The translations under genes and the position numbers were made by a program. A DNA stretch of 64,000 nt from a virus, in the IMG/VR virus record IMGVR_UViG_3300042541_001760, positions 179,689-243,688 of that record, one strand, 5' to 3'. Under the pieces are notes generated by a model. That model saw only the letters and a list, made by a program, of their open reading frames with translations. It was not told where the DNA came from and ran no database searches. Of the stretch, positions 4,761 to 48,352 are shown piece by piece (the first letter of the stretch is position 1; every line of letters begins with the position of its first letter).

Positions 4761-6113
4761 TTAATTATTTCTAATAATGATATATTGTTTTTCTAAAACA
4801 TATTCAGAATCATACGAACCATCATAACCATTCATAATTCCGTATCCATCAGAATCGACTAATCCTTGAGCCATAGCATCAACATCAACCCAATCTTTAA
4901 CAGGCATCTCCCACTCTTTTAACTTATCAAGAGGGTCATTCATTATATCACGCATTATTTCATCAACTTTTTCTTCAATCTGCGCTGGTGTTGGTTCTCT
5001 TACTCTATTTTGGATTTCCTCAATTTCTTCGTTCATTGCGTCAATCTGCTCTTCGTAATTATTCCATTCGTCAGAATTTATATCAGTTTCAGATTGTAGG
5101 TCTTCCATTTGACTTATTTTATTTTCAAGTTCTTCAATATGTTCTTCTTCTTCATCGGTAGGTCCAAAATCGTTTTCATCAAAATATACATCTGTGTTGT
5201 TCATAACATCATCCTCATAATGACTTCTAAAGAAGTATTCAATTCCACTCTCATCCAAATAATCTTCAACAAACCCCGTATTATAATTGTCAACACCAAG
5301 ATCATCTATTGAGTCTTTTGCATATCGTAAAGCCTCGGCGTCCGCTTCTTCCTCACTACCCACACGATATTCTCTACCTGAAAGATCACCAGTGATAATA
5401 TCAAAATTTAACATACTATTTCTATACCTACCCCCCGGTATTAATGAATATACATCCATTTTATTTTCTAAGGCTTCAATATCCTCCTCAATTGCGTCTA
5501 TATTTCCTTGTAATTCACCGGTATCGTTTCCTTGTTCTTGGTCATAAAGTAATCCACCTAACATTTCTTTAAGTTGTCTTAATTCAACTTCTTCTTCTTC
5601 CGTTATAAACATATCAGATTCTTCCGAAGATAGGTATTGAAATAAGGCTTGAGCTCTCAATCCATCGTAGTCCTCATTTTCAATTGCCCATTCATTTCTC
5701 TCCCTTCTTAGCTGAGCATCCGCCAACAATCCATTTATTCTAATACGTTCTCTCTTTCTCGCTATTGGTGTTCCTCCATCCCATATACTTCCCGTTACGG
5801 TAACTCCATCAATAGATGATATTTCAGATCTGGATATATCCAACCTTCCATCAACATATTTTATTGGACCCATACTTTTAAACGAATCGTTATTTAAATT
5901 TAAACCCCCATTTATCTTAACCTTTTTACCTCTAAACATTTTTGTTTTAGCCAAAAAGTCCAAATTATTATTTGCTCTCTCAGCGTATTTTTTAAATTCA
6001 TCTCCGGTCATCTCAATCCACTGCTCTTCATTTTGAACATCTTCTGTTTGTTCAATAACTAACTTAACTATATTCTCAAGGTCAGATTCCTTTAATTTAA
6101 TAATTCTTGCCAT
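4761..6113 (-). CDS. Acidic hypothetical protein with N-terminal leader; candidate packaged head protein
   Basis: The 450 aa product begins with an amphipathic helix, IIKLKESDLENIVKLVIE (residues 4-21), then Q. A hydrophobic-X-Glu end to a short leader is the pattern cut by T4 gp21 prohead protease in head-targeted internal proteins. Related leaders occur on other proteins in this window. The mature part has a short segment resembling a repeat unit (GPIKYVDGRLDISRSEISSI) and long Glu/Asp/Asn-rich coiled-coil stretches. A TATTTATA element lies 22 nt upstream. The function of the mature part is unknown; head packaging is inference. Confidence 0.7.
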   Translation of the reverse strand: MARIIKLKESDLENIVKLVIEQTEDVQNEEQWIEMTGDEFKKYAERANNNLDFLAKTKMFRGKKVKINGGLNLNNDSFKSMGPIKYVDGRLDISRSEISSIDGVTVTGSIWDGGTPIARKRERIRINGLLADAQLRRERNEWAIENEDYDGLRAQALFQYLSSEESDMFITEEEEVELRQLKEMLGGLLYDQEQGNDTGELQGNIDAIEEDIEALENKMDVYSLIPGGRYRNSMLNFDIITGDLSGREYRVGSEEEADAEALRYAKDSIDDLGVDNYNTGFVEDYLDESGIEYFFRSHYEDDVMNNTDVYFDENDFGPTDEEEEHIEELENKISQMEDLQSETDINSDEWNNYEEQIDAMNEEIEEIQNRVREPTPAQIEEKVDEIMRDIMNDPLDKLKEWEMPVKDWVDVDAMAQGLVDSDGYGIMNGYDGSYDSEYVLEKQYIIIRNN

Positions 6114-6135
6114 ATAACTTAAATATTACTTATTT

Positions 6136-6145
6136 TATAAATATC
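6136..6145 (-). promoter_or_regulatory. TATTTATA element (candidate late-type promoter)
   Basis: On the minus strand this reads GATATTTATA, 22 nt before the start of the 450 aa leader-bearing protein. A plus-strand variant at 6180-6187 faces the other way, so the 6114-6216 gap looks like a divergent promoter region. Confidence 0.5.
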
Positions 6146-6179
6146 AGAATATTATTTACATTAAACCACAATAGTTAAA

Positions 6180-6187
6180 TATTTATG
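6180..6187 (+). promoter_or_regulatory. TATTTATG, variant of the TATTTATA element
   Basis: TATTTATG lies 29 nt before the ATG of the MGCGC protein, in the orientation expected for it. The last base differs from the consensus. Confidence 0.3.
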
Positions 6188-6216
6188 TAAAATAAACTTT
6201 TAATAATTATAACAAC

Positions 6217-6357
6217 ATGGGATGCGGATGCAAAGGTAAACAAGAACCTGTACAACAACCAGTACAACAACCAGTACAACAACCTGCTACACCACCTCAG
6301 AATAATGCTATTCAAGAGGCGGTTAGAAAAACGGTGGAGAAATACTACAAAAAATAA
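6217..6357 (+). CDS. Small MGCGC protein with Gln-Pro repeat
   Basis: A 46-codon frame starting at 6217 encodes MGCGCKGKQE, three VQQP repeats, a short proline stretch and a C-terminal amphipathic helix (AIQEAVRKTVEKYYKK). There is no hydrophobic signal sequence, so it is not a classical lipoprotein despite the early cysteines; the paired cysteines could bind metal or form a disulfide. A strong terminator follows. Its own promoter-like element, the terminator and codon periodicity support it as a real gene. Function unknown. Confidence 0.6.
   Translation: MGCGCKGKQEPVQQPVQQPVQQPATPPQNNAIQEAVRKTVEKYYKK
6247..6282 (+). repeat. Three-unit 12-bp tandem repeat
   Basis: Three copies of a 12-bp unit (CCAGTACAACAA or a one-base variant) encode the PVQQ repeats of the MGCGC protein. 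Unit number could vary between related phages by slippage. Confidence 0.75.
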
Positions 6358-6395
6358 AACTATTTGTTAGGGGTTGACAGGTATGAAATTAAGAG

Positions 6396-6443: not shown

Positions 6444-7487
6444 ATGAATTTAGATAAAATGATTCAGAATTTTAATAATGGTGATGATGAATTCTTGTTG
6501 TTATTTGGTACTAAGCATGACGAAATAATACATAGATTCTTATCACTAGTTAAACATAAGGGTAAATTAGACCAAATTTTGTGGAAAGATAATGATAATT
6601 TAGAGTATGGGGTTAATAACGTACTACATTTTTTATTTAAAGAACCTGAATATAGAGAGAAGATAATTGATAACGCTATTGATTATTATAGTCGTGATGT
6701 GACTAAAGTTGGTGATATAATTTATTTAAATTTTAATGATATTCGTGATTTGTCTGATTTTTTTTGTAATGAAGAATTCAGAAGAGGAGAGATGACTAGT
6801 GGTGAAATAGCGAACTCCGTTTTATCTGATGATTTTTGGGAGCCTTATGATGACACGGTTAATGATTTATACGATGATGTCATTGAGGAATTGAGTCCTG
6901 AAAATCTTGATAAATTAGGTAATATATTATTAAGACAAATTGGTAATACAAAAATAGAATCTGATGATGACGATTTAATATCAACTATTGCCGATGAACA
7001 AGGTCATCCCGAATATGTTATATTGGAAAAAGATGATATTACCAGAATATTAAAAGACAAATCGGCAACCAAAACGCTTTTTAGAAATGGTTATGTTGAA
7101 GGTGATTTAGAAACCGATTTGTATAATCTTCACGGAAATGCTTATAATGGTGCTTATATTAATGAGTTATATAAAATGGTTTGGAATGCTCTTGGGGACT
7201 TATTTGGAAAAGGTGAATATGTTAAAGATGAAAATTCAAGAAGTAAAAACGAATATAGATTTGACATTACAGAATTATTTCCTTTAGTTATTGGTGATTT
7301 TATTGAATCTAAGATGGGTTATAGTGATAATATACAAAATTATTGGAGTTTTAATTCATTAGTAAATGAACTATTTAATTATAGTAGCAAATATGAATGT
7401 CTGAAATTAGGTAGAATACCTGATTACCCTGACCACATTGATGTTAGGAACAACTTAAACTCATCATTTGATGATTACATATACTAA
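6444..7487 (+). CDS. Acidic hypothetical protein, 347 aa
   Basis: The protein is rich in Asp, Glu and Asn, soluble, with no signal peptide or membrane segment, and appears mostly helical. No domain is recognised. It is a monocistronic plus-strand gene preceded by a terminator and the TATTTATA element, and its stop overlaps the end of the convergent 91 aa gene by 4 bases. Confidence 0.7.
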   Translation: MNLDKMIQNFNNGDDEFLLLFGTKHDEIIHRFLSLVKHKGKLDQILWKDNDNLEYGVNNVLHFLFKEPEYREKIIDNAIDYYSRDVTKVGDIIYLNFNDIRDLSDFFCNEEFRRGEMTSGEIANSVLSDDFWEPYDDTVNDLYDDVIEELSPENLDKLGNILLRQIGNTKIESDDDDLISTIADEQGHPEYVILEKDDITRILKDKSATKTLFRNGYVEGDLETDLYNLHGNAYNGAYINELYKMVWNALGDLFGKGEYVKDENSRSKNEYRFDITELFPLVIGDFIESKMGYSDNIQNYWSFNSLVNELFNYSSKYECLKLGRIPDYPDHIDVRNNLNSSFDDYIY

Positions 7488-7857: not shown

Positions 7858-8658
7858 ATGAAATATATTAATTTAAATTCAAAAAAAGGTTTAGTAAATT
7901 TATTCGCCGATTACATAGTTAAAGAGTTTAGTCACAATACTATGATACAAGTTTCAGATTGTGGGGCATTCTTCTTAGTCAAAGGTAAAACAGATAAAGA
8001 AGAGTATGTTGATTTAAACGAAATAAAGAAAACATTCTTAAGTGACAATAAAAACAATTATCAATTTTTAGGTTTAGAGAATATTAATATCATTGATATT
8101 ATTGAGTATGATACTGAAATCCTACCTAAAGATAGATGGCATTCGTTTTATCCCACTGAGAGACCTATATACACTCAATCTGTTATAGATAGACACGAAG
8201 ACCTGATTAACACAATAAACTCGTTAAATGAGGTTAATGGTAGGTCTGTTATTGAATCTGAGGAGGAGGTTATCGGTTTTGATTATTATGAATACCCATC
8301 TATGATTATAACATCAGAATTTCCTTATGGTTATGGTTTGGATACAGGTAGATTGGGTTACTACTATTCTGAATATATTGTCAATCATTTGTTTAACATT
8401 ACCAACTCATCAAGTATTGATTTTAGATTCTCAAGTCAGGTTGATGATGATATGGAAGTTAAAATAGACATATCTTTATATGATAGTTTATTACCTAACG
8501 AATATATTAAATCTATGGTGTTGGATGTATTTAATTTTGATGTGTCCGAACTTAAAAATGAATTACAATCTTATGACTTGTTGGATGACTTAAAGGATCC
8601 TTTTGGTAAGAAGCCTTGGTTGGTTAAGGATATGATTGGGGATATTGTTGTTATTTAA
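7858..8658 (+). CDS. Hypothetical protein, 266 aa
   Basis: A soluble alpha/beta protein without signal peptide or recognised motif; Tyr/Asp/Asn-rich, with a conserved-looking GYGLDTGRLGYYYSEYIVNHLF segment in the middle (named here only by its first and last parts: GYGLDTGR and YIVNHLF). It is convergent with the first paralogue of the tandem family, overlapping it by 8 bases. Function unknown. Confidence 0.65.
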   Translation: MKYINLNSKKGLVNLFADYIVKEFSHNTMIQVSDCGAFFLVKGKTDKEEYVDLNEIKKTFLSDNKNNYQFLGLENINIIDIIEYDTEILPKDRWHSFYPTERPIYTQSVIDRHEDLINTINSLNEVNGRSVIESEEEVIGFDYYEYPSMIITSEFPYGYGLDTGRLGYYYSEYIVNHLFNITNSSSIDFRFSSQVDDDMEVKIDISLYDSLLPNEYIKSMVLDVFNFDVSELKNELQSYDLLDDLKDPFGKKPWLVKDMIGDIVVI

Positions 8659-8995
8659 ATTTATGATTCCAACGGTGGATATCGTATTTATAAGTCCATA
8701 AAGGTGTTACCTCCTTTAATTTGTAAACCTCATCCAACCATTTTTTTATAGTTGATTGGATATCTCCGTAGTTAAGATGAAATAATAATTCAATTTTCGA
8801 CCAAATATCGTCATTGTGAATATAAACACGCTCAGTTTTCTTATCGTATTCCATTAAAACCTGATTATTATCATTTACATAATATATTGAGTCAGGATAA
8901 TCCTTATGTTTCTTTTGTGTTAAATTACCAAAGTGCTTGTTTAACCACTTGATAACAACCCTCTCTAACTGATGTTCATTTACTTGTATGTTCAT
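8651..8995 (-). CDS. Tandem paralogue family protein, copy 1
   Basis: This 114 aa protein begins MNIQVNEHQLERVVIKWLNK, then HFGNLT and a beta-rich middle (SIYYVNDNNQVLMEYD), and ends with a helix rich in Trp. Three neighbours share the same start and layout. The N-terminal helix resembles the leader helix of the candidate packaged proteins (IxVxExxLxxVV), but no hydrophobic-X-Glu site follows. Function unknown. It is the last gene of the operon that includes the surface-protein genes. Confidence 0.7.
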   Translation of the reverse strand: MNIQVNEHQLERVVIKWLNKHFGNLTQKKHKDYPDSIYYVNDNNQVLMEYDKKTERVYIHNDDIWSKIELLFHLNYGDIQSTIKKWLDEVYKLKEVTPLWTYKYDIHRWNHKFK

Positions 8996-9005
8996 ATTCT
9001 ATTTT

Positions 9006-9350
9006 TCAATTTCTAAGTTCTTCCCAATTGAAAATGGATGCGTTACTGTTTCTGATTGGTCTCACACCCTTCAATTTGTAAGTATCTTCCAACCAAACCT
9101 CAATAATTGATTTGATGTCATTGTGTCCAATGTGAAATATATTTTCCAAATGTGACCAAATATCACCATAATGAATATAGACATATTCACTTAGTTTAAT
9201 GTATTGAAGTATAACATTATTACTAGAATCCACATAAAATACCACATTAGGAAAATCCTTATGTTTCTTTGGTGTTAAGTTACCTAAGCGTTTGTTTAAC
9301 CACTTGATGACAACTCTCTCCATTTGATTTCTATTTACCTGTACGTTCAT
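9006..9350 (-). CDS. Tandem paralogue family protein, copy 2
   Basis: A 114 aa paralogue of its neighbours: same N-terminal helix (residues 1-20), GNLTPKKHKD, a central strand pair with DSSNNVIL, and a C-terminal EVWLEDTYKLKGVRP. It starts within the last bases of copy 3's reading region (4-base overlap), so the copies are translated from one message. Function unknown. Confidence 0.7.
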   Translation of the reverse strand: MNVQVNRNQMERVVIKWLNKRLGNLTPKKHKDFPNVVFYVDSSNNVILQYIKLSEYVYIHYGDIWSHLENIFHIGHNDIKSIIEVWLEDTYKLKGVRPIRNSNASIFNWEELRN

Positions 9351-9715
9351 ATTCTATTTTTTAATTTATAGGTCTCCTCCAACCAAATAAGGCCATCCGG
9401 CCAATTGAAATCATTATCCATTGGTCTTACTCCCTCCAATTTGTATGTCTCTTTCAACCATACCTTCATAATTGAATGAATTACATGATAGTTAAGGTGA
9501 AATAACGATTCAACTTTTCCCCAAATATGATTATAATCGATATAAAAATTTTCATACTCCGGATTGTATTCCATCATAACCTTATCATTAGAATTTACGT
9601 AAAATACTGAGTCAGGATAATATTTATGTTTCTTTTGCGTTAAATTACCAAAGTGATTGTTTAACCACTTGATAACAACCCTCTCTAACTGATGTTTATT
9701 TACTTGTATGTTCAT
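9347..9715 (-). CDS. Tandem paralogue family protein, copy 3 with duplicated tail
   Basis: A 122 aa paralogue starting MNIQVNKHQLERVVIKWLNN. Its C-terminal WLKETYKLEGVRP element is followed by a second partial copy, WLEETYKLKNRI, giving the longer length. It overlaps the T9SS-domain gene upstream by 4 bases and copy 2 downstream by 4 bases. Function unknown. Confidence 0.7.
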   Translation of the reverse strand: MNIQVNKHQLERVVIKWLNNHFGNLTQKKHKYYPDSVFYVNSNDKVMMEYNPEYENFYIDYNHIWGKVESLFHLNYHVIHSIMKVWLKETYKLEGVRPMDNDFNWPDGLIWLEETYKLKNRI

Positions 9716-10308
9716 TTAATTAATAATATTTTACCATAAATATCTTTATACCCACGATTAAACCCCTTATATACTATATGGTATACGTAAACATCTTCCT
9801 GACATATTTGACCCTTATAAGTTCCATTCCATTGTTTATTAATATCATCACTTTCAAATATTAATTCACCCCATCTATTAAATATTGTAATATTAAACTT
9901 ATCAACACCGAATCCATAAGCCCCGAAAGTTTCGTTTAGATTGTCATCATTTGGTGTAAATGCGTTTGGGACATAGATGCTTAACTCAGGACACCCCTCA
10001 ACTTTTACAATCACTTCGGTTTGTGAGATACAATTACCATTTGTGTATTGAGCAACTATGGTATACTGACCTGGATCATCCCACCTAACAAATAAAGTAT
10101 TATCGTTTAATCCTTGTGCGTTCACACTAGGTTCTACTATCCAACGACTTTGATAACCCGGTAATCCATCAACCCAATATTTTTTATCAATATACAATGT
10201 ATCACATAAATTTATTATCTGAGGTTCGTTACGTATCTGTGTGTTTAATGAACCACTTAATAATAAAATAAAGACAATTAATATTGTTTTTAAATATGGG
10301 TATGACAT
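9712..10308 (-). CDS. Secreted protein with T9SS type B (gliding-motility-associated) C-terminal sorting domain
   Basis: The 198 aa protein has a signal peptide (hydrophobic residues 7-19, likely cut after about residue 24), an Ig/PKD-like middle (about 30-105) and a C-terminal domain of about 85 residues starting IYVPNAFTPNDDNLNETF, with FNITIFNRWGELIFES and W-N-G-T-Y-K-G after it. This is the pattern of type B sorting domains in Bacteroidota, which carry proteins through the type IX system to the cell surface. It is the third of three successive exported-protein genes (1 nt gap to the previous one). Finding it among phage genes is unusual. It depends on the host for T9SS. Confidence 0.88.
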   Translation of the reverse strand: MSYPYLKTILIVFILLLSGSLNTQIRNEPQIINLCDTLYIDKKYWVDGLPGYQSRWIVEPSVNAQGLNDNTLFVRWDDPGQYTIVAQYTNGNCISQTEVIVKVEGCPELSIYVPNAFTPNDDNLNETFGAYGFGVDKFNITIFNRWGELIFESDDINKQWNGTYKGQICQEDVYVYHIVYKGFNRGYKDIYGKILLIK

Positions 10309-10309
10309 T

Positions 10310-10876
10310 TTAATCTGTGTATATAACCGGTGTTGATGGTGGTGGTGTTATCGTTATTGACCCACTACCACTCATAGGGCATCCATTAGCATCTGTTGAT
10401 GTGAATGTGATTGGGTAAACTCCTGTCGCTAATCCTGTTGCGTTAAATACCGATCCGGTAACACCAGTTCCGGCAAATACAGGATTAGTCCCAAGTGGAT
10501 TGGATGTTAAGTTTATTGTTCCGTTTCCTTGACATAAGGCATCAACTATAACAACAGGTATTGTTGGTGGTAGTACGGTTATCGTTGCCGAACTAGTTGA
10601 ACTACATAAACCAATAGTTTTGGTTATGGTAATTGTGTATGTCCCCGCAACAGACCAAGTGACTTGTATTTGGTCACCACTTGATATTGATGTAAATGGA
10701 ACTGCTGGTACTATACTAAAAGTATATGTCGCCAATGGGTCAATAACTTGGTCACCATAAACTTGAACATCGTTCAAACAATAAGTGTTGTTATTTGCCG
10801 AATTCGGTGTTGGTACTTGTCCGTAACCTAATAGGGTTACCAATAAAAATCCAAGAATAATTATAATCTTTTTCAT
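10310..10876 (-). CDS. Secreted Ig-like/PKD-like domain protein
   Basis: The 188 aa protein has a clear signal peptide (MKKIIIILGFLLVTLLGYGQ) and then two beta-sandwich repeats of the kind found in Bacteroidota secreted adhesins, with paired cysteines and GTYTITITK and GSGSITITPPP segments. It lacks any sorting or anchor domain of its own and ends shortly after STPVIYTD. It lies 1 nt from both flanking exported-protein genes, so co-translation and assembly with them are likely. The specific ligand is unknown. Confidence 0.75.
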   Translation of the reverse strand: MKKIIIILGFLLVTLLGYGQVPTPNSANNNTYCLNDVQVYGDQVIDPLATYTFSIVPAVPFTSISSGDQIQVTWSVAGTYTITITKTIGLCSSTSSATITVLPPTIPVVIVDALCQGNGTINLTSNPLGTNPVFAGTGVTGSVFNATGLATGVYPITFTSTDANGCPMSGSGSITITPPPSTPVIYTD

Positions 10877-10877
10877 A

Positions 10878-12254
10878 TTAATTTGTGTAAACTGATACTG
10901 TTATACCACCCGGTGGTATGTTTATTGTTTTATTTATTGTTGTTGATGTACAAGGTCCGTTAATGGTTAATGAAACATTATAAGTCCCTGATAATAAATA
11001 TGCGTGAGTTGGATTTTGTTGTATTGAAGTTTGACCATCACCAAAATTCCAAAAATACGTATATAAGTTATTCTGATTAACACAATTGTTAGTTATCGTA
11101 GGTGACTGAAATGATGCGGTGGTGCAACTTATGGTTGGGTTGGGTAATATGTATTGGGGTTGGACATAAAATGACGCAAAGTTAGGTAATCCGAATCTAC
11201 CTGCCCTACTCACAAGTGGTATGGATAAGTCCGAGTAGTTACACCCGACTCCATAAACATTGGGATTATTTATAACGGATAATGATGTATTATTCCTCGC
11301 AACATAAACCTTACCATCAGGTCCTAATTGAATTGACCCTATGAAAGCGCCTGCGTTTGATACGACTCTACGGCTAGCCTGTATCTGTGCTTGAGTTCCC
11401 GCACATAAATCCCATTGTAATAACATACCTTGGTTTGTCCCACCATATAATATTCTACCGTCAGGCGAGAATTCACATCCATAGATACCCGTCTCGTTTG
11501 ATAGGGTAAATCCCCCTGATGCGAAACCTGTGGATGGGTCAAAATTATGTAACTCAATCTTATTCATTCCATAGTGACACGCCGCCAACCTTCTTCCGTT
11601 TGGTGATGCCTTTAATTGTCCATAAGCGGATTGGGGTACTCCTGATACAACAGACCCGGATATTGACCAAGTAGTAATACTAGGGACACCAACATTATCC
11701 ACCAACCAAGAGGTAAATACATTTGTATTCCAATCGTGTGATAAGACCCAAACATCAACATTATTACAATGTCTGACGGCACATAACTTTTCACAGGATG
11801 GTGTTTTTAGTTGGGTATTCTTTGTTGTGACCGCACCTAACCCCACACTTAAACTCATATCAACAATTGAGTAACATATACCATTAACTCCAGCATCGTT
11901 ATCCGAAGTGAAGATATAATATATGTTGGGTTGATTTGGTTTCTGAACTATGACGGCTGATTGTGTGGATGAAACATCACCGAATAAACCAGTACCATTT
12001 GTCATAACCAAATGGTTTTTATTCCAAACGGTAATCCCGTTGGTATAGAATAATAGATTACCCAAATTATCTGATATGGTTGCCACCCCTTCAATAGTGG
12101 TTAAGGCTCCATTGGTTAAAGCAACAGGAGACCCTGAGTTAAAGGTTATCCCCGCATTTGTCCCAAAATACCAATTAGTACTCGGACCGGGTATTTGTGA
12201 ATATCCGATAACATAAAGTAATGAAAATAATATTATAAGTTTTAACTTTATCAT
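10878..12254 (-). CDS. Secreted beta-propeller plus PKD domain protein
   Basis: The 458 aa protein has a signal peptide ending GYSQ, a long N-terminal repeat region opening with NWYFGTNAGITFNSGSP and FYTNGITVWNKNH (about residues 25-370, beta-propeller-like, with SPNGRRLA, SPDGRILYGG and GPDGKVYVA blades), and a PKD domain near 385-450 with YFWNFGDGQTS. This arrangement is typical of flavobacterial secreted proteins, where a T9SS domain normally follows in the same chain; here the chain ends at SVYTN and the sorting domain is in a separate gene. It overlaps the barrel gene upstream by 4 bases. Confidence 0.8.
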   Translation of the reverse strand: MIKLKLIILFSLLYVIGYSQIPGPSTNWYFGTNAGITFNSGSPVALTNGALTTIEGVATISDNLGNLLFYTNGITVWNKNHLVMTNGTGLFGDVSSTQSAVIVQKPNQPNIYYIFTSDNDAGVNGICYSIVDMSLSVGLGAVTTKNTQLKTPSCEKLCAVRHCNNVDVWVLSHDWNTNVFTSWLVDNVGVPSITTWSISGSVVSGVPQSAYGQLKASPNGRRLAACHYGMNKIELHNFDPSTGFASGGFTLSNETGIYGCEFSPDGRILYGGTNQGMLLQWDLCAGTQAQIQASRRVVSNAGAFIGSIQLGPDGKVYVARNNTSLSVINNPNVYGVGCNYSDLSIPLVSRAGRFGLPNFASFYVQPQYILPNPTISCTTASFQSPTITNNCVNQNNLYTYFWNFGDGQTSIQQNPTHAYLLSGTYNVSLTINGPCTSTTINKTINIPPGGITVSVYTN

Positions 12255-12919
12255 TCCTTAATACGAATGGTTAGACCAACGTCTAATCCTATCATATAAG
12301 TATTAAATGAATTGTCAATAACTATTGGTGTTAAATTTGTTCTACCATAAACTGATGTAGTTAGTCCAACACCCTCAATTATATTCATATACAAACCACC
12401 TCTAACAAAAACCCCTAAATAAGTTTTAACCGTTTTATAATCGTATATTTCAACATCATATGTAAAATCATTACGATTTGTTATTATCCCATCACCAAAT
12501 ATCATATTTAAAGATGGACCTATTTCAAAATATAAACTTTGACCAATGGATGGGTAGTATGTCAATAAGGGAGATATGGAAACACCATCTATTTGTATTG
12601 TCTTATCAATATACTTTAACTCATTAAAATTAACACCATTCGGTATGATTCTAATATCCTGATTTATTCTTGTTTTATTTGTCTCCAATTTAATACCCCA
12701 AAATTTATTCTGATAATAACCATTCTCAAAATATCTCGCAAACGAAAAACCATATGAACTAGCATAGGTTATTCTTCTTTCATTTCTTAGATCGGTAAAT
12801 GATGTGTTCGGTATGTTTAATGTTGTAATCCCTCGATTAAAATTACCACTAATGGTATAGACTTGGGATAAGAGTGGGGACGACAGTAATACGCATAAAA
12901 CCAGTAAAAACTTTTTCAT
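12251..12919 (-). CDS. Outer-membrane beta-barrel protein
   Basis: The 222 aa product has a signal peptide (MKKFLLVLCVLLSSPLLSQ) and about eight alternating hydrophobic strands ending in an aromatic/glycine-rich C-terminal strand (MIGLDVGLTIRIKE), which fits the small OmpA-like or OMP_b-brl barrels of Bacteroidota. In hosts, a PorP/SprF barrel is often encoded beside T9SS type B cargo; this one is shorter than SprF, so equivalence is only a suggestion. It is the first gene of the exported-protein operon, behind a terminator and a TATTTATA element. Confidence 0.72.
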   Translation of the reverse strand: MKKFLLVLCVLLSSPLLSQVYTISGNFNRGITTLNIPNTSFTDLRNERRITYASSYGFSFARYFENGYYQNKFWGIKLETNKTRINQDIRIIPNGVNFNELKYIDKTIQIDGVSISPLLTYYPSIGQSLYFEIGPSLNMIFGDGIITNRNDFTYDVEIYDYKTVKTYLGVFVRGGLYMNIIEGVGLTTSVYGRTNLTPIVIDNSFNTYMIGLDVGLTIRIKE

Positions 12920-12972
12920 AAGATATAGTATATGTTAGTTTAGTTGCCATTCGTAATACGCACTGATTTTAC

Positions 12973-12982
12973 TATAAATATC
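12973..12982 (-). promoter_or_regulatory. TATTTATA element upstream of the surface-protein operon
   Basis: On the minus strand GATATTTATA lies 53 nt before the barrel gene start and just after the terminator at 12990-13017. Transcription of the paralogue/redox operon would stop there and restart here. Confidence 0.55.
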
Positions 12983-12989
12983 TTAAAAA

Positions 12990-13017
12990 CAAAAAATCCA
13001 CTAAAAAAGTGGATTTT
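12990..13017 (-). terminator. Rho-independent terminator
   Basis: On the minus strand AATCCACT, a five-T loop and AGTGGATT are followed by TTTT. It ends the operon containing the redox genes and the fourth paralogue (13062-13373). Confidence 0.75.
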
Positions 13018-13061
13018 ATTATTTACTTTATTAAATGTTTTATTACATTAGGTGATTTTTA

Positions 13062-13373
13062 CTAATCATAAGTGGCACCAAAAACTTCTTGAACGTCAAT
13101 ATCGTATGTTTCGTACATCCATTTTGGGACTATAGTTCTAACATCAACATAAGTTAATTTAAACATATTAACCAAACTCATAAGAATATCATTATTCACA
13201 TGTAAAATACCATTATCAGTATTATAATCCATCATCTGTTTATTATTATGGTTAAAATAAAATACCGTATCGGTAAAATATGAAATCTCTTTTAGTGTTA
13301 AGTTACCGTAGTGTTTATTTAACCACTTGATAACTACTCTTTCCAATTGATGTTTATTTACTTGTATGTCCAT
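13062..13373 (-). CDS. Tandem paralogue family protein, detached copy 4
   Basis: A 103 aa paralogue of the three genes at 8651-9715: MDIQVNKHQLERVVIKWLNK, then HYGNLT, the central NHNNKQMMDYN strand pair and a C-terminal PKWMYETYDID. It lies on the other side of the surface-protein operon, so the family flanks that cassette. A TATTTATA element sits exactly 4 nt before its ATG. Function unknown. Confidence 0.7.
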   Translation of the reverse strand: MDIQVNKHQLERVVIKWLNKHYGNLTLKEISYFTDTVFYFNHNNKQMMDYNTDNGILHVNNDILMSLVNMFKLTYVDVRTIVPKWMYETYDIDVQEVFGATYD

Positions 13374-13377
13374 AATG

Positions 13378-13386
13378 TATAAATAC
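13378..13386 (-). promoter_or_regulatory. TATTTATA element, 4 nt from start
   Basis: Minus-strand GTATTTATA with a 4-nt spacer to the ATG of the detached paralogue, the same spacing as at 244, 46423 and 48170. Confidence 0.45.
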
Positions 13387-13388
13387 CA

Positions 13389-14324: not shown

Positions 14325-14326
14325 AA

Positions 14327-16021: not shown

Positions 16022-16025
16022 AGTC

Positions 16026-16060
16026 AAAAAAAAAGGAGTAGAAAACTAAATCTACTCCTT
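16026..16060 (-). terminator. Hairpin with T run between promoter and PcfJ-like gene
   Basis: On the minus strand AAGGAGTAGA, an eight-base loop and TCTACTCCTT are followed by a long T run, ending 5 nt before the ATG at 16021. It would stop read-through from the upstream genes. Transcripts from the promoter at 16062-16092 would begin inside the left arm and so avoid the full hairpin. Confidence 0.7.
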
Positions 16061-16061
16061 A

Positions 16062-16385: not shown

Positions 16386-16407
16386 AATTACAATCGTTTA
16401 ATCGTTT

Positions 16408-17778
16408 TTAATTATCAAGAAAAAAGTAACCATTACCTTGTGATATTAAATTTTCCCTAACCGATTCAGGTAAGGTTTCCTCTAACTTATCTCCTGAACC
16501 ATAAATGTTAAGGAAGGTCAGGTCTTTTAAGTTTTCTATTGAACTTGGTAATGATTTTAATTGTTTGTTATTAGGTAGTATAAGATAACCTAAATTTGTT
16601 AGTTTTCCAAGTTCATCAGGTAATGATTTAACAATATTTTCTAATTGTAAAGTCGTTAAATTTGTAAATTCGCCTATTGATGCTGGAATGTCTATCGCAA
16701 GATCTTCTTTAGATTTATTAATGAATGATAACATATCTATGTCTCTTGGTAAACTTTCAAACAATTCCTCAAAGCCATATAGAGCCACGAATTTACCCGC
16801 TGAACTATCAGGGTAAGTTATGTTAACTTGGTTCGTAGATTGATTAACCAATCCTTTTGCGAATTCAGGTTTGAAGTATTCTTTAAGGTCGGGTGCTTTA
16901 TTATTTAAAAAATCAACCAACTCAATTCTATGGTCTAATCTATCCATAAACTGATTAGATGGGAAGTGAAATTGGAATCTGTCTTGGGGTAATCCTGTTC
17001 TTCCTCCGACAGGTCCACCCTCATCGTTAGATAATAACACATAAAGAGGTCCGTCTTTAACATATCCCCTAAAATAACTTGAACTTGGTGGTGATGTACA
17101 CCATCTTGATTCACCCTTTTCGTAGTCATAATAACCACCATACCAAGATGCCGCTTCTTGACCTTTTTCACCCCCATCTGAAATCTTAACCACTGTATAG
17201 TTGTCTCCAACATATTCAACGGTCGCACCAGGATGTGAAAAACCTTTTCTTTCTTTACGAATTTCTTTTTTAACTTCTGACTTAGCTAATTTATTCTTAA
17301 TCTTCTCAGGTAGTTCAAAATTATTTAGGAATTTGAAAAGTTTAGTTGGTGTAAATTTATTGATATCTCTCCATACAACAGGAAAATATTGTTTGTATTT
17401 TGTGAATTTTTTAAGGTCATCTGTTAATTTAAACAAATCCTCCATAAATAAATCACGTGCTCTTTCAACACTACCTGAGTCGTCAGTTTCGGGACTCTCA
17501 TAGTTCTTTAACATCCAATTAACATATTGACCCGGTTGAATCTTTTTTAAATTCTCAGGACTAAAATCCGCATCGTTAAAATCCGCAGGTTTTTTTGTGG
17601 TTGGATCGGCAAATATGATATCTGCCAATTTATTTATATCCATTAAAGCTTTTGAGCCTTTACCGGGTATTACATCTTTCTTAGGTTTTGTATATTTGTC
17701 AATCAATACATCAAAACGACTTTGTTCCGTTAGAATATTACGTAACAATGTGTTTAATTTTATATTTTTAATTTTCAT
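16408..17778 (-). CDS. Leucine-rich-repeat protein with N-terminal leader, copy A
   Basis: The 456 aa product begins with a basic leader ending NILTE (residues 14-18) followed by Q, resembling a T4-type prohead-targeting sequence. A central domain has SRWCTS near residue 225, which also occurs as RSWCTS in the neighbouring paralogue, and the C-terminal third has leucine-rich repeats (IPASIGEFTNLTTLQLEN, LPDELGKLTNLGYLIL, LPSSIENLKDLTFLNI). The repeats are a protein-binding fold. Target unknown. Packaging in the head is inferred from the leader only. Confidence 0.75.
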   Translation of the reverse strand: MKIKNIKLNTLLRNILTEQSRFDVLIDKYTKPKKDVIPGKGSKALMDINKLADIIFADPTTKKPADFNDADFSPENLKKIQPGQYVNWMLKNYESPETDDSGSVERARDLFMEDLFKLTDDLKKFTKYKQYFPVVWRDINKFTPTKLFKFLNNFELPEKIKNKLAKSEVKKEIRKERKGFSHPGATVEYVGDNYTVVKISDGGEKGQEAASWYGGYYDYEKGESRWCTSPPSSSYFRGYVKDGPLYVLLSNDEGGPVGGRTGLPQDRFQFHFPSNQFMDRLDHRIELVDFLNNKAPDLKEYFKPEFAKGLVNQSTNQVNITYPDSSAGKFVALYGFEELFESLPRDIDMLSFINKSKEDLAIDIPASIGEFTNLTTLQLENIVKSLPDELGKLTNLGYLILPNNKQLKSLPSSIENLKDLTFLNIYGSGDKLEETLPESVRENLISQGNGYFFLDN

Positions 17779-17808
17779 ATCTATTATATATTTTGCTAAG
17801 TTATTAAA

Positions 17809-19623
17809 TTAATACCAAATATAAAAACCGGGACCTTCTTCTTTCATCCTTGCTCTTACTTCTTCGGGTATGATTATATCAGGATTAGATCCCTCCAATA
17901 GGATGAAATCTAACTCTTCTAATTTTGCTAATGATTTGGGTAATGACTTTAGTCTAGGGTTGTTGGGTAATCCTAAAACAGATAACCTACTTAGATTACC
18001 AATTGATTCGGGTAACTCCTCAACAACGCCAGTCAAACTTAAATTCTCAAGATTACTAAATCTATCTATGTCGTTTGGTATATCTATTTTTATTGACCCA
18101 TCTTTACTCTTATTCTTTATTACTAACTCAGTGATGGTGTCAGGTAATGAATCAAAAAGTTCTTTTAATCCATATAGGGCAATGTATTTACCTTCGTTTG
18201 ATGATGGTAACTCAATTACTGCTGAGTCCTTGAATACAAAATTGGTTGCGAACTTAGTTTTAAGGGATTCTTTTAGTTTGGCCATCATAGGTAAATTTAG
18301 TATGGCTATCTCACCTTCACTTAAACTACCAATATTCTTGTTAGATAAAGCCTCAACTTTTTTCTTTAGGTAGTATTTCATTGTGTCAGAATCAGAGTTC
18401 CTAACTTGACCTGCGGTTAATTCGTGACCTAAAGCAATATATTTCTTTCTTAAATTTGGTGTTAGGCTATTGAATTGTTCATCACTTACTTTCCTATTAA
18501 CAATCTCTAACCAATACTCAACCTCATTTTCATTAGCGAAAGTATCAAAGAGATTATCACCGACTTTTGAGTTTCTTATTTTATCTATAAGTACTTTTTC
18601 GTCAGATGTTAATGGTTTTGGTTTGAATACGCCCTCCAATCCTTTTAATTTAGGTATTTTAGTTAATATCTCACTCCAAGGAATATTGTTATGACCTGAA
18701 TATCTACCTGAGTTTGTACCATCCGCCAATGACATATCCCCATCAGGGTCAACCAATATAACAACCGCAAAGTTTACATCAGAATAATCCTTATCTTGGT
18801 CTATCACATAGTATAATGTTCTCTCGTTGTCTAATCTATAGTTATAGAATAAGTTTGATGTTCCCTCACGAGATGTACACCAACTTCTACCATTCTTTAA
18901 CTTAATACACTGGTCTCTCGTCTTTGGTTGGAATATTAATAAGTTATTCTCATTGTATACTTCCTCAATATCAGATACATCTGTTTTTGTTTCTGTGTCG
19001 TCGGATTTAACTGACGCATCAATATAATGTTCAAAATCTGTAAAACTTAGTGAGGTTGCCAATGGCATTTGCTCATATAACTGATTAAAGTTATCCAAGT
19101 ACGCTTGAACATAATACATTATTACATCTTCCGTTAGATTTGGATTCTCTTTCTTAAATTTCTCTGACAATATTTTTAGTAGAAACTTGGGGTAAGATTG
19201 GTCAATAACTTTTTGTAAATCCAAGAATTTATACTTGGTGATGTCCTTACCTTTACCGAATGCGTCCTCAATCTCCAAAAACTTTCTAATGGTTTTCTTA
19301 AGAGACACATTTTCAATACCCCCTTCTTTCTTTTTGAACTCCTTAAAAAGATCGGATTCTCTTTTTTGAGTTCTCTTTAAAGCAATAATGTTTTTTAATT
19401 CACTATATGAATATCTTGATAAATCTCTTTTCTCAACAGGTAACCCGTTTTTGTATTTTTCAAAATCGTCAATGTATCCACCTATGGTTTTTTCGTCATC
19501 CTTAGTATCTTGTAAAAATTTACCGATTAACTTCGCTTTTATTTTATCGGATACTTCTTTAAGTAACTTTTTAGGTAACGGGCTTTCAACCACAACGGAC
19601 GATAATAAATTTACTAACTTCAT
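17809..19623 (-). CDS. Leucine-rich-repeat protein with N-terminal leader, copy B
   Basis: The 604 aa paralogue of the gene downstream has a short N-terminal MKLVNLLSSVVVE leader (hydrophobic-X-Glu followed by Ser), a long charged region, the WCTS block (GRSWCTSREGTSNLFYNY, about residues 246-263) and C-terminal repeats such as LPESIGNLSRLSVLGLPNN and LPKSLAKLEELDFILLEG. Both copies share the sentence-like GKYIALYG / GKFVALYG..ELF element before the repeats. A TATTTATA element lies 18 nt upstream. A role as an injected internal protein is a hypothesis. Confidence 0.75.
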   Translation of the reverse strand: MKLVNLLSSVVVESPLPKKLLKEVSDKIKAKLIGKFLQDTKDDEKTIGGYIDDFEKYKNGLPVEKRDLSRYSYSELKNIIALKRTQKRESDLFKEFKKKEGGIENVSLKKTIRKFLEIEDAFGKGKDITKYKFLDLQKVIDQSYPKFLLKILSEKFKKENPNLTEDVIMYYVQAYLDNFNQLYEQMPLATSLSFTDFEHYIDASVKSDDTETKTDVSDIEEVYNENNLLIFQPKTRDQCIKLKNGRSWCTSREGTSNLFYNYRLDNERTLYYVIDQDKDYSDVNFAVVILVDPDGDMSLADGTNSGRYSGHNNIPWSEILTKIPKLKGLEGVFKPKPLTSDEKVLIDKIRNSKVGDNLFDTFANENEVEYWLEIVNRKVSDEQFNSLTPNLRKKYIALGHELTAGQVRNSDSDTMKYYLKKKVEALSNKNIGSLSEGEIAILNLPMMAKLKESLKTKFATNFVFKDSAVIELPSSNEGKYIALYGLKELFDSLPDTITELVIKNKSKDGSIKIDIPNDIDRFSNLENLSLTGVVEELPESIGNLSRLSVLGLPNNPRLKSLPKSLAKLEELDFILLEGSNPDIIIPEEVRARMKEEGPGFYIWY

Positions 19624-24365: not shown

Positions 24366-25664
24366 TTACTGTGTTTTTCTATTGTAATTCAGTAAGTTAC
24401 TCATTTTATTTATTTCTTCGTTCAACAACTTAGTTTTCTTATCTTGTGTTGACTCTAATTGATTCATAATCTTATTAGCCTTTGTGTTACTTTTATTAGT
24501 AGTGTTTGTCTCTCCTTTAGTAACTTCACCAGCCTCATCAGTAACGACCGGTTGGGGTGATTTATTATAGGCTTGTTTTTTAAGTGCCCCCAATAAATTA
24601 TCCTTTCTGATTTTATTTCTGTTTTTATTAACAGGTGTCTCAACCGCATTTGCCCACTTAGGATTATTACCAGTTCTAGATGAACCTTCAATATTGTCTG
24701 TTACCCAATCTTCATTCGGGTGAATTTCATCATACATTAAGTTCTCTTGACCTGCGGATGAAAATGCTTCAACATATTCCTCAACTGCGTCAGATGCTTG
24801 GTATGTCTTTTTTGCCATCTTTTTATCCATTTGTCCGTTAGATTCAGGGAAATGTTCTGCATCCATAGTATAATCTTCTTTAGAACCATTTTTAAGGTAG
24901 TCCTTCATCTTTTGAGTTACAGATTTAATGTAATCATCATTTTCTTTTTTAGATTTACCAATTGCCGTTTCGTATGTTGCCAATCCTTTAGGTTTTGACA
25001 TTTTTTTAATATTGTCTTTCTCCTCTTTAACAATCTTTTCAATCATATCAATCATCTCATCTTCGGTTAATTTGATAGATTCTTTAACTTGATATTCTTT
25101 ACCATCAACTTCAAAGTCATCATCTCCTTTACGTTTTGCTTTTGCTAATGCTCCTGTAAACGCATTACCTTCTTCCATTTCTTCGTCAGTTTGATGTTTT
25201 TTTGACTTTCTTAACATTTTAAAATCTTCAGCGTCAATTTTGTTATTTTTATTCTTATCCATTTTTTTCTGTCCACCGAATAATGCTTCAGTCATTTCAG
25301 CACCAGCATATCTTTTGTGACTCTCACAAGCCTGTGCGTCATAATCTTCACCATCTTCATTACAAACTCTTGATAATTTTTCAGAGGGGTCGAAATCCAT
25401 ATCGGTACTTTCCATCATGCCACCATATCCACATTCGTTACATTGACCTTCATTCATAGTTCCACCACATTGTTCACAAGTTTCTCCTTCTTCCATCTCT
25501 TCATCCATTGATATTTCTTGCCATTCATCCTCTGTCGTCATATCATCATCAATTTCATTGACTTTGGATTTGATTTTATTTACTAGTGATTCGGCTCTTT
25601 CTTCTAATGACTCCTTTAATGTTTTTTTAACAATTGAATCAATATAGTTATTTACGTTTTTCAT
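24366..25664 (-). CDS. Acidic zinc-ribbon/EF-hand protein with leader; candidate packaged head protein
   Basis: The 432 aa product begins MKNVNNYIDSIVKKTLKE then S, a leader of the hydrophobic-X-Glu type. Downstream are a zinc-ribbon-like CEQCGGTMNEGQCNECGYGG (about residues 58-77), an EF-hand-like loop DKNKNNKIDAEDF (about 135-147) and a second internal leader-like helix IKLTEDEMIDMIEKIVKEE (about 197-215). The rest is Lys/Glu-rich. Internal repeated leaders recall T4 scaffold/core proteins cut at several sites. A TATTTATA element lies 13 nt upstream. A head internal or scaffold role is inference. Confidence 0.7.
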   Translation of the reverse strand: MKNVNNYIDSIVKKTLKESLEERAESLVNKIKSKVNEIDDDMTTEDEWQEISMDEEMEEGETCEQCGGTMNEGQCNECGYGGMMESTDMDFDPSEKLSRVCNEDGEDYDAQACESHKRYAGAEMTEALFGGQKKMDKNKNNKIDAEDFKMLRKSKKHQTDEEMEEGNAFTGALAKAKRKGDDDFEVDGKEYQVKESIKLTEDEMIDMIEKIVKEEKDNIKKMSKPKGLATYETAIGKSKKENDDYIKSVTQKMKDYLKNGSKEDYTMDAEHFPESNGQMDKKMAKKTYQASDAVEEYVEAFSSAGQENLMYDEIHPNEDWVTDNIEGSSRTGNNPKWANAVETPVNKNRNKIRKDNLLGALKKQAYNKSPQPVVTDEAGEVTKGETNTTNKSNTKANKIMNQLESTQDKKTKLLNEEINKMSNLLNYNRKTQ

Positions 25665-31353: not shown

Positions 31354-31995
31354 ATGAATAAAAGAATATCAATTACAAGAGACCAACTGGTTGAACATAT
31401 TAGAAAATCAATTTCTAAAAATTTAATGGAACAGGACTATTCGTCCGATATAAATAGACCAACTCAACCTAGAGAAAAAGGGGTTAAGACAATATTTGGT
31501 GATAAGTATTCAAGATATATTCCAAATGATGTTATTCGTTATATGAGAAAGAACCCGGCTCTTATATTTGAAAGGTTATTTGAACTATATGGTGAGGACG
31601 CCTATATGTATTTAGATAAAGCAAAAGAAAAGATGGGTGATTCACCTGAACCTATGATGGAACAAGATATGGATGATGATTACGATGATGAAGATGAGGA
31701 AGAAGAACAGGATCCATTGATGGACACATTAAAAGATGTTGTTAACAACAATGGTGAATTCAGTGAAAGTGACATTGATGACATTAATGATTATGGGGGT
31801 TCTAAAAGATCGTTTAGAGGTTCAATTTATTTAGATGGAATGGTACCCGAAACTGACGATAAAGAATTTGATAGAAAAGTGGCAATTAAAATTATGGAGT
31901 TCTTCGCATCAGGACTGAACATTAACAGATATGTCGGTGGTGTTGGTTTCAAACAACGAAGTATGACAAACCCATTTGATAACGAGAATTTTTAA
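31354..31995 (+). CDS. Hypothetical protein with leader; candidate packaged head protein
   Basis: From the ATG at 31354 the 213 aa product starts RISITRDQLVEHIRKSISKN (residues 4-23) and then LME-Q, a hydrophobic-X-Glu site followed by Gln. The mature part is acidic with a long D/E run (about 95-115). An upstream ATG at 31324 would precede the promoter-like element. A strong terminator follows. Function of the mature part unknown; packaging is inferred from the leader. Confidence 0.65.
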   Translation: MNKRISITRDQLVEHIRKSISKNLMEQDYSSDINRPTQPREKGVKTIFGDKYSRYIPNDVIRYMRKNPALIFERLFELYGEDAYMYLDKAKEKMGDSPEPMMEQDMDDDYDDEDEEEEQDPLMDTLKDVVNNNGEFSESDIDDINDYGGSKRSFRGSIYLDGMVPETDDKEFDRKVAIKIMEFFASGLNINRYVGGVGFKQRSMTNPFDNENF

Positions 31996-32001
31996 AATAT
32001 A

Positions 32002-39585: not shown

Positions 39586-40266
39586 ATGAAAAACTTATTT
39601 AATGATATCTCTCAAGATGAGAGAAACAGGATTTTGGAAATGCATAAATCCGCAACTAGAAAAAACTATTTGTCAGAACAAACACCCGCTCCCGCACCTG
39701 CTCCTGCAACTGCTCCTGCGGCGGCACCTGCCGGGGTTCCTAAAGGTCCGGTTGGGGGTGTAACTAAAAAACCTGCGGTAGTGCCAGGTGGTGATAAACC
39801 ACAGGGTTCTGCGGGGATTTATAAAGAAATTGATGTCGAGACTTTCAATCCAAAATTTCAAATGTGCTGGAACGAAAACACTGCAAGTGGAAAAAAATAC
39901 ATTTCACTAAAACAAAAGGTTGAGAATGGGGATGATGAAGAGGAAAAATTGATGGTGTATAATAATAACAATATTAGACAATCAATGTTTAATACCATTA
40001 ACCAAGTTTATTTGAAGTCTCTAACTAAACCTATGAGTAGTGACGAGTTAGGCAGATTATGGAACACCGTAAAAACTTACCCAATTACATACTATTTCAC
40101 TGACCCGAAAGTACGACCAAGAGTGTCAAATACGATTTCATCAACTGTTGAAGAAGCAATAAAAAACGTTTATACGAATGAGAATGAAATGAAAATAGAT
40201 TATTTGAATACGTTTAATTGCGCAATGAAGGGTATTCAAGGTGCTCAACCTACACAAGGTACTTAA
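39586..40266 (+). CDS. Pro/Ala-rich protein with leader; candidate packaged head protein
   Basis: The 226 aa product begins NLFNDISQDERNRILEMHKS, then KNYLSE followed by Q at residue 32, another hydrophobic-X-Glu leader. After it comes a Pro/Ala linker (TPAPAPAPATAPAAAP) and a soluble domain (about 95-226, with CWNEN and a YYFTDPKVRPR segment). A bidirectional terminator follows. Head packaging is inferred from the leader and the promoter element; function unknown. Confidence 0.7.
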   Translation: MKNLFNDISQDERNRILEMHKSATRKNYLSEQTPAPAPAPATAPAAAPAGVPKGPVGGVTKKPAVVPGGDKPQGSAGIYKEIDVETFNPKFQMCWNENTASGKKYISLKQKVENGDDEEEKLMVYNNNNIRQSMFNTINQVYLKSLTKPMSSDELGRLWNTVKTYPITYYFTDPKVRPRVSNTISSTVEEAIKNVYTNENEMKIDYLNTFNCAMKGIQGAQPTQGT

Positions 40267-46436: not shown

Positions 46437-46451
46437 TTTATTAGTTGTTTT

Positions 46452-48065
46452 TTATGGGTTGTTAATAGACATAACATTAGTTTCTGGCGCCCCTGTGACA
46501 TTACAACAAGTACATCCATTAATTGATGAGGTACTTAGTATAAACACTTTATCGGTTGATTTAACGTAACAAGACAAGGGACTTAATTTAAGTATTGAAG
46601 TTATAACCGTTCCTGATATCACATCCACCCCTGATATTGTAATATTGTTATACGTTAAAGTGGTTGCAGTTGAATATTCCTTAGTGTTTGGTGGGCATAT
46701 GCCGGTTGTTGATCCAGATTGTGTTGAAGATGCGGTTGTTGGTGTTATACCTATAGGGACTCCATTTTTATGTACTTGAACAGTATTAGTTATACTTCCA
46801 AACGCCGGATTGGTCGCCACCATAAAATTATTATATTCGGATAAATCAAAAGTTATTATTGTACCGGATGGTAAGTTTGATATAATGTTATTATTTATGT
46901 CTCTAACAACAACTTTAAATGTTAATTTTTTCTGTCCCACCCCTGTTGATACTATTGTATTATCTATTGTTAAATTATACGAATTTGTTGCCGGTCCGGC
47001 CGGAACGATTGCGTTCTGTTGTCTTACTGTTGACGATCCATCTTGTACCCAAATACTATAAGTACCCGCCGGTAAGTTATTAAACATTGGTGATTGTTGT
47101 GTTGTAATACCTCCATCTTTTGAATATATTACGGGTGGTTGACCGTTAAGGGGATTTATAATTAAAGATCCCGTAGAGTCGTTAACACAATTAGGGGCAC
47201 TAATAGTTGGTGGATTTAAACTCATCACAGGCGCATTACAAGCCCCCGCATATGTGGTGGCATTACCCGCTGGTCCGAATAAAGTCCAACCACCAATTGG
47301 TGGAATACTCGCGTTCGTGTTTATTATCAATGTTGAGTCAATATCAACAAACCAATAAGCTTGTGATAATCCACCCCATCTCATATCGAGAGTACCAGAA
47401 ATCCAAGTGGGTTTACCATTTACAATACTCCCCGTTGGTGTGAATGTATATAATGTTGTAATATTACCTGTAGTATATTGTAAACATAAATTAGGGTACA
47501 CAACAGGAATTGGTGTCGGTGTTGGTGTAGGAGTTGGTGATGGTGTTTGACTAGGAACAATTAAAGAACAGGTTGTTGTTGCCGTATAATCAGACCCTCC
47601 GTTTGGCCAATTGTAGTCGGTTACTGTTACAGTATACACCCCATTAGAAGTGGCATTAGTTAAAGTAGGACCTAAAGTTCCTGTACTCCAAAGAATTTTA
47701 TAAGGTGGTGTACCACCCGATACTAACATAGTAATACTATTATTTAATAGATTTGGACTACAACTAATAGTCATTGGCGTTATTGTAACAATATCACACT
47801 GATTAACTCCTGTAACTCTATTACAGACATACAATGCGGTACATTCACCACAATTACCATAAGAACCCTCTAAAGTGACTCCTGGCGATAAAAAAGAATA
47901 TGTGGGTGAATCAGGATACAATGAACCAGAACTAATAACAGTACAACAACCACTGAAATAATTGGGTATAATTACATACTTTATATCACCAATCGTTAAT
48001 GTTGGAGAATTGGTTAGTGTAAACGTAAAACTGGAATCGCAACAGGATTTGAAATAATGGGTCAT
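46452..48065 (-). CDS. Virion adhesin-like protein with SprB-type repeat and Pro-Thr linker
   Basis: The 537 aa product has an N-terminal Cys-rich module (SCCDSSFTFTLTN to GNCGECTALYVC), a SprB-like repeat (ISCSPNLLNNSITMLVSGGT then PPYKILWSTG and GVYTVTVTD), a Pro-Thr linker (TPSPTPTPTPTPIP), a second SprB-like repeat (LIINPLNGQPPVIYSKDG, LPAGTYSIWVQDG) and a beta-rich end. SprB repeats are known from flavobacterial surface adhesins. In a tail protein they may mimic host surface contacts. A TATTTATA element lies 46 nt upstream. Confidence 0.65.
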   Translation of the reverse strand: MTHYFKSCCDSSFTFTLTNSPTLTIGDIKYVIIPNYFSGCCTVISSGSLYPDSPTYSFLSPGVTLEGSYGNCGECTALYVCNRVTGVNQCDIVTITPMTISCSPNLLNNSITMLVSGGTPPYKILWSTGTLGPTLTNATSNGVYTVTVTDYNWPNGGSDYTATTTCSLIVPSQTPSPTPTPTPTPIPVVYPNLCLQYTTGNITTLYTFTPTGSIVNGKPTWISGTLDMRWGGLSQAYWFVDIDSTLIINTNASIPPIGGWTLFGPAGNATTYAGACNAPVMSLNPPTISAPNCVNDSTGSLIINPLNGQPPVIYSKDGGITTQQSPMFNNLPAGTYSIWVQDGSSTVRQQNAIVPAGPATNSYNLTIDNTIVSTGVGQKKLTFKVVVRDINNNIISNLPSGTIITFDLSEYNNFMVATNPAFGSITNTVQVHKNGVPIGITPTTASSTQSGSTTGICPPNTKEYSTATTLTYNNITISGVDVISGTVITSILKLSPLSCYVKSTDKVFILSTSSINGCTCCNVTGAPETNVMSINNP

Positions 48066-48111
48066 TTAATAATAATTCTTACAAACTAAATAATAATTGG
48101 TTATTTTTAGT

Positions 48112-48121
48112 TATAAATATC
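48112..48121 (-). promoter_or_regulatory. TATTTATA element (candidate late-type promoter)
   Basis: Minus-strand GATATTTATA, 46 nt before the 537 aa virion gene. A plus-strand copy lies at 48157-48165, so this gap is divergent. Confidence 0.5.
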
Positions 48122-48156
48122 TTAATTAATGTTTTGTGGTATTAATATACCTTAGA

Positions 48157-48165
48157 GTATTTATA
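48157..48165 (+). promoter_or_regulatory. TATTTATA element, 4 nt from start
   Basis: Plus-strand GTATTTATA with a 4-nt spacer to the ATG at 48170. Confidence 0.5.
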
Positions 48166-48169
48166 TTAT

Positions 48170-48352
48170 ATGAAATTATTAAGAACAATAGAAAAGATGG
48201 TTACCGAATCTGAAAGAGCGTATGAAGAAGCATGTGAGAGAGGTGCTAAACCACAGGTGTTAGATAAATTAGAAAAAAACTACTTGGACTCACTTAAATT
48301 GATGTCTTTATACGAGAGTGTTGAGAAAAATCAACAAGGGAAGACATCCTGA
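48170..48352 (+). CDS. Small helical protein with leader-like N-terminus
   Basis: The 60 aa product begins MKLLRTIEKMVTE then S, short enough to be mostly leader if processed at the Glu, followed by a charged helical part (ERAYEEACERGAKPQVLDKL). It is a lone plus-strand gene among minus-strand virion genes and overlaps the end of the 246 aa gene by 22 bases. It may be the smallest member of the leader-bearing set; low certainty. Confidence 0.5.
   Translation: MKLLRTIEKMVTESERAYEEACERGAKPQVLDKLEKNYLDSLKLMSLYESVEKNQQGKTS

Follow-up and report, generated by a model that had tools for sequence, protein, structure and literature searches.

In phage T4, internal proteins are attached to the core by propeptides of 10–19 residues, and the protease gp21 cuts after the sequence L/I-X-E; once freed, the proteins remain in the head, and many of them are ejected (PMC9026906). 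Replacing the Glu at the cut by Asp blocks processing (PMC9026906). The substrates of gp21 also include the core proteins gp22, gp67 and gp68 (PMC9026906). T4 internal proteins are variable; among them are a restriction inhibitor and a protein that modifies host RNA polymerase, and the capsid-targeting sequence (CTS) has been proposed as an uptake route for various internal proteins in T4-like phages (PMC9026906). In phages phiKZ and SPN3US, head ejection proteins are cut by an S77-related protease at S/A-X-E (PMC9026906, PMC5694885). In phage P1, the N-terminal 30 residues of DarB suffice to carry a reporter into the capsid (PMC9024508).

The window analyzed here is a stretch of 64,000 bases, positions 179689–243688 of a virus record of 261,052 bases (G000). 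A preliminary description had listed seven of its proteins as bearing short N-terminal leaders. Together with the many similar leaders described below, these are very probably capsid-targeting propeptides of the T4 kind that are removed in the prohead.

Seven proteins of the window and their leaders

All seven ORFs are present at the coordinates given below, with starts as earlier described, and each (7/7) has a leader of 13–31 residues ending in hydrophobic-X-Glu followed by Gln or Ser. Leader status finds support from homology or several orthologues in five cases and from one orthologue in a sixth (17809–19623), while the seventh (48170–48352) is unsupported. In the sequences that follow, a slash marks the predicted cut.

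Two of the leaders belong to classes that recur across viruses. ORF 4761–6113 carries a class A leader at 6051..6113 (- strand), MARIIKLKESDLENIVKLVIE/Q, with a predicted cut of KLVIE/QTEDV; it is matched by the class A profile at an E-value of 6e-9 (5.7e-9 in the genome-wide profile search). ORF 39586–40266 carries a class B leader at 39586..39678 (+ strand), MKNLFNDISQDERNRILEMHKSATRKNYLSE/Q, with a predicted cut of KNYLSE/QTPAP. The class B profile matches it at 6e-14 (3.3e-19 in the genome search), and phmmer matches 22 proteins to the ORF, mainly via the leader. A class A-like leader, MNKRISITRDQLVEHIRKSISKNLME/Q, is found at 31354..31431 (+ strand) in ORF 31354–31995, with a predicted cut of SKNLME/QDYSS, and 11 relatives of the body of this protein have class A leaders. 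The leader of ORF 24366–25664, MKNVNNYIDSIVKKTLKE/S at 25611..25664 (- strand), has a predicted cut of KKTLKE/SLEER; its match to the class A profile is weak (4e-5), and [IL]xE is kept by three relatives.

The bodies had been described as otherwise unrelated, which applies to most of them, the exception being a pair of adjoining LRR paralogues whose common domain contains an invariant W-C-T-S motif. The first, 16408–17778, has its leader at 17725..17778 (- strand), MKIKNIKLNTLLRNILTE/Q, with a predicted cut of NILTE/QSRFD. Relatives at 10 loci keep [ILV]xE directly before the common body, and E18 is the sole invariant residue among the first 82 in an alignment of 10 rows that includes the paralogue. 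The second, 17809–19623, has its leader at 19585..19623 (- strand), MKLVNLLSSVVVE/S, with a predicted cut of SVVVE/SPL; its one orthologue, at locus L302, ends in SVVTE/RS. The pair (16408–19623) lies side by side in L302 too. The LRR cargo as modeled by AlphaFold2 (mean pLDDT 74, pTM 0.48) has a low-confidence leader helix ahead of the body, and a Foldseek search with this model returned LRR matches only, which pointed to no function.

The small ORF 48170–48352 has a possible leader at 48170..48208 (+ strand), MKLLRTIEKMVTE/S, proposed from its motif; a search for relatives found none. Two further ORFs of the window contain leader-like stretches with weak profile scores, namely 27585–28211 (YGIINE/Q) and 32090–32707 (VSYTISE/S). 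ORFs 6444–7487 and 32704–34152 match class C but have no cut site and were left out.

Other N-termini in the window also recur. Four paralogues of 103–122 residues, at 8651–9715 and 13062–13373, start with MNIQVNxHQLERVVIKWLNKHFGNLT and resemble class Q, a set of about 95 proteins beginning MKIIITESQ that is widespread in related phages. Class Q conserves I-T-E-S-Q-x3-L and has no conserved Glu or cut site at its end, and it was not counted as a leader. A CHU_C type IX secretion domain (E 2.8e-15) is present in the protein encoded at 9712–10308, one of four neighboring ORFs at 9712–12919 with N-termini resembling signal peptides. This domain suggests that some phage-encoded proteins are exported through the type IX system of the host, which would be a member of the Bacteroidota. 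Outside the window, a long run of ORFs at 12001–32000 of the record (L092) resembles sugar or glycosyltransferase genes from a reading of the sequence.

Leader classes in this genome and in other viruses

The class A leader, MKKIIRLTESDLTRIVKRVINE/, stands at the N-terminus of 261 distinct viral proteins encoded in the DNA fetched from IMG/VR, where scans for the class gave at least 377 confirmed relatives and at least 120 stretches. These 261 proteins fall into 186 body clusters without detectable similarity to one another (blastp, E 1e-3). Glu is kept at P1 in 259 of the 261 (4.25 bits), and P3 is Ile in 196, Leu in 41, Val in 17 and Met in 7. Past P1, the information per column drops to 1.4, 0.6, 0.6 and about 0.3 bits. 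At the level of DNA, 256 of the 261 leaders are distinct and their synonymous sites vary freely, so the constraint acts on the protein.

A comparison of all N-termini, with pairs of similar bodies left out, yielded eight more classes, each ending in hydrophobic-X-Glu. Class B reads MKKFIITEEEKNRILxMHKxATxxQYLNE/Q, class C MNLQENIRRILREE, class D MKNLIRRILKEE, class E SYSKIRHIQESNxxLExRLLNE/Q, class F YKNRFYNLMESTIGNVKPLINE/Q and class G MNLQEQISRIQSMMGVISE, and H and I are two further leader classes. The motif [LIVM]xE falls in the expected zone in 286/297 members of class A, 68/82 of B, 22/23 of C, 12/13 of D, 10/10 of E, 10/10 of F, 9/11 of G, 9/9 of H and 6/7 of I, counts that are descriptive because the zones were set by inspection. 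Leaders are about 11–31 residues long, mostly basic and amphipathic; that of class A has a charge of +3 and a median hydrophobic moment of 0.91, compared with 0.48 for other N-termini.

Leaders of different classes are exchanged on one and the same body. This is observed with a protein that begins YMFFSN and is conserved in the head region, for which there are 24 distinct members. Most relatives have class A leaders and others have short leaders of class C or D, and the bodies are 69–83% identical across the exchange. A P1 Glu and a hydrophobic P3 are found in all 24.

Within this genome, leader-family profiles match 33 of 210 N-termini at E<=0.01 over 156 kb, a few of which are not leaders, versus 0 of 210 reversed sequences (Fisher p 3e-11). 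Over the same 156 kb, 17 ORFs with a leader-like N-terminus match classes A–I at E<=1e-8, and class B has two more matches outside it, at 70220 and 164212. Profiles or orthologues give weaker support to six others, at 131986 and 135239 and in the window ORFs 16408, 17809, 24366 and 31354. The total thus comes to about 19 strong leaders and about 25 overall (about 20–25 supported), which are lower bounds since about 156 kb of the 261 kb was read as stretches and the rest by profile. Many of the leaders are located in an island at 131–147 kb of mostly small orphan genes on one strand. Eight other large records hold 8–17 copies of class A and 2–6 of class B each. The further leaders that the preliminary description had proposed to look for are plentiful, both in other parts of this genome and among related phages; its list of seven contained real leaders together with one weak entry (48170–48352), and covered a small part of the cohort.

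It could be argued that such leaders are nothing more than Glu-rich phage N-termini selected by eye. A bare motif of hydrophobic-hydrophobic-X-E at residues 9–38 occurs in 15% of 204 ORFs versus 6–13% in later stretches, a weak enrichment that was for this reason not relied on alone. In addition, HNH endonucleases beside the capsid gene resemble classes A and B through their own N-terminus (they were left out), and 48170–48352 is unsupported. Against this, the reversed-sequence controls gave 0/210 and 0/3169 matches, and the reversed class A pattern occurs nowhere in the fetched DNA. These controls refute chance as the source of the leader families, a refutation that does not cover 48170–48352, and they make selection by eye scarcely credible as a general account.

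The distribution of class A was also examined outside IMG/VR. In a set of 84,980 bacterial and archaeal genomes, one per species, a search with a single peptide pattern, which was not exhaustive, found five loci, some with a longer class A variant such as RLTENDLHRIVKESVKKIISE. Contigs filed as bacterial genomes (L312–L315) have a variant one helical turn longer, such as MKKIIRLTENDLHRIVKESVKKIISE; these contigs look like pieces of phage, and some may come from gut phages. No class A leader occurs in phiKZ, T4, a cyanophage, a crAss-like Cellulophaga phage or immuto. Short tblastn searches of the leaders against annotated phages gave no matches, by a method that is weak for such short queries.

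The prohead protease and the capsid protein

The earlier comparison with T4 had called for a gp21-family prohead protease in the genome, and one is present. A Peptidase_S77 protein is encoded at 53352–54083 of the record (E 2.4e-24), the sole match of its family in G000 and above the family cut-off. When aligned with the proteases of T4, a cyanophage and immuto, it keeps the His, Ser and Asp columns, which are the H-S-D triad of T4-type proteases (PMC5694885). Near its own N-terminus is GILIE/D, and T4 gp21 has LIE-9 (PMC9026906).

A gp23-type capsid protein is encoded close to the protease, at 49603–51441 (E 4e-63), and scans with it gave at least 599 confirmed relatives. It reads ENQASFLINE/ASSES at the place of FLTE/A in T4, and LINE is unchanged in 77 of the 77 relatives read. 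The endings of the leaders match this site, L-I-N-E/A or S, of the capsid protein itself. Between the two genes is an ORF (51462–52943) with a net charge of -74, acidic and scaffold-like. The S77 protease was found in 16 of 20 large records, all of which had been chosen for leaders or a close gp23 relative, with no matched leader-free set. The other four lack gp23 as well, for which reason they are likely fragments in which the head module is probably missing. One related record of 268739 bases (G015, locus L238) encodes a pair of S77 prohead proteases separated by about 200 kb.

A helix that is basic and amphipathic can bind to membranes or nucleic acids. The leaders might accordingly be tags for some other cell site or fate, such as a membrane, a replication compartment or degradation, and be unrelated to the head. 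Such a function would leave unexplained the [ILV]xE ending common to all nine leader types, the loss of conservation at precisely that point, and the match of that end with the cut site of the capsid protein, and we regard it as improbable. The presence of a protease beside gp23, the many further leaders and the agreement of their endings with the capsid cut site support the earlier suggestion of internal proteins loaded into the head. Packaging of the leader-bearing proteins is, on these sequence grounds, well supported but indirect.

Proposed mechanism and known systems

From the sequence-level features (leaders and their families, a conserved end, leader exchange, a protease with its catalytic residues and a matching capsid site), docking, cleavage, packaging and ejection are proposed as steps of one process. 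During prohead assembly, the leader would dock its protein on the acidic scaffold core; given basic, amphipathic leaders and an acidic scaffold, this docking may reasonably be guessed to be electrostatic. The gp21-type protease would then cut after [I/L/V]-X-Glu, at the same type of bond as in the capsid protein, releasing the mature protein within the head. The cargo would remain with the DNA, and part of it would probably be ejected into the host at infection. The leader types would act as interchangeable address labels.

Injection of cargo into the host is a plausible extension of packaging by analogy with T4. More broadly, the leaders might constitute a general delivery system of large Bacteroidota phages, in which perhaps 20–40 head-loaded proteins bear at least nine interchangeable labels, each possibly specifying its own site or time in the core, and many are injected as early effectors. 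This is put forward tentatively, as a possibility to be taken seriously. Alternatively, the leaders could be prohead propeptides whose cargo serves assembly only, as components of the core with no delivery to the host. The cutting of gp22, gp67 and gp68 by gp21 in T4 is consistent with this, as is the YMFFSN protein, which belongs to the head module and has been conserved across many relatives. Most leader-bearing bodies, however, are variable orphans (186 clusters among 261 proteins), unlike conserved core proteins. Family scans of 116 cargoes found nearly all to be without a known domain, and the few matches were to lysozyme, M23 peptidase, M20/M42 peptidase, GNAT or P-loop kinase families; this resemblance to enzymes also argues against a role confined to assembly, which we consider rather unlikely.

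Should the delivery system be real, a hidden arsenal could be listed from sequence alone via its labels. The leaders offer a rule for predicting head-packaged and possibly injected proteins among the orphan genes of an abundant uncultured phage lineage, and such proteins, if injected, would act first in infection. The exchange of many leader types between bodies also allows capsid-targeting rules to be tested comparatively.

The closest counterpart is the CTS of T4 IPI–IPIII, likewise a short N-terminal propeptide, removed by gp21, that ends in hydrophobic-X-Glu on unrelated bodies; T4 also combines a gp21-family protease with a gp23-type capsid protein in one genome. In T4 the carriers, with MKTYQEFIAE-like leaders, number a handful, whereas this genome has about 20–25 supported carriers and at least nine leader types are found here, some with V-X-E endings that are looser than the L/I-X-E rule. 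The T4 genome contains nothing that the class A profile matches, and by any test made the leaders are unlike MKTYQEFIAE in sequence and not homologous to it; on these tests they are working analogues of the T4 leader, set within a head system that is itself homologous.

Similarly, phiKZ and SPN3US are giant phages with many internal proteins cut by a prohead protease (PMC9026906, PMC5694885). Several of their N-terminal propeptides exceed 100 residues, with one of 20 (PMC5694885), and class A is absent from phiKZ. The packaging signal of P1 DarB is also N-terminal, but it concerns one protein plus an antirestriction system, and no family of shared cleavable leaders is described there (PMC9024508). 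A cultured relative, Flavobacterium phage immuto, has a gp23/gp21-type head and shared N-termini on unrelated proteins. Its two leader sets, FDLKKFLVENKLTxNSKLLKE and KKSQLRQIIKE, are mostly in the late region and are distinct from classes A and B, with 0 matches. They occur in 8 of 58 late-region ORFs versus 1 of 88 replication-region ORFs (p 0.003, an optimistic value because both motifs were chosen after the late region had been seen).

Capsid targeting, its protease and the variable internal proteins of T4 are already known. Full-text papers on capsid targeting, a scope that leaves subscription journals and preprints outside, comprised work on T4, SPN3US and P1, and no prior description of such a leader repertoire was found among them. 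As far as these papers show, the novelty lies in how many carriers there are, in the multiplicity of interchangeable leader types and in the lineage, and the repertoire is best described as a much enlarged variant of the known T4-type mechanism.
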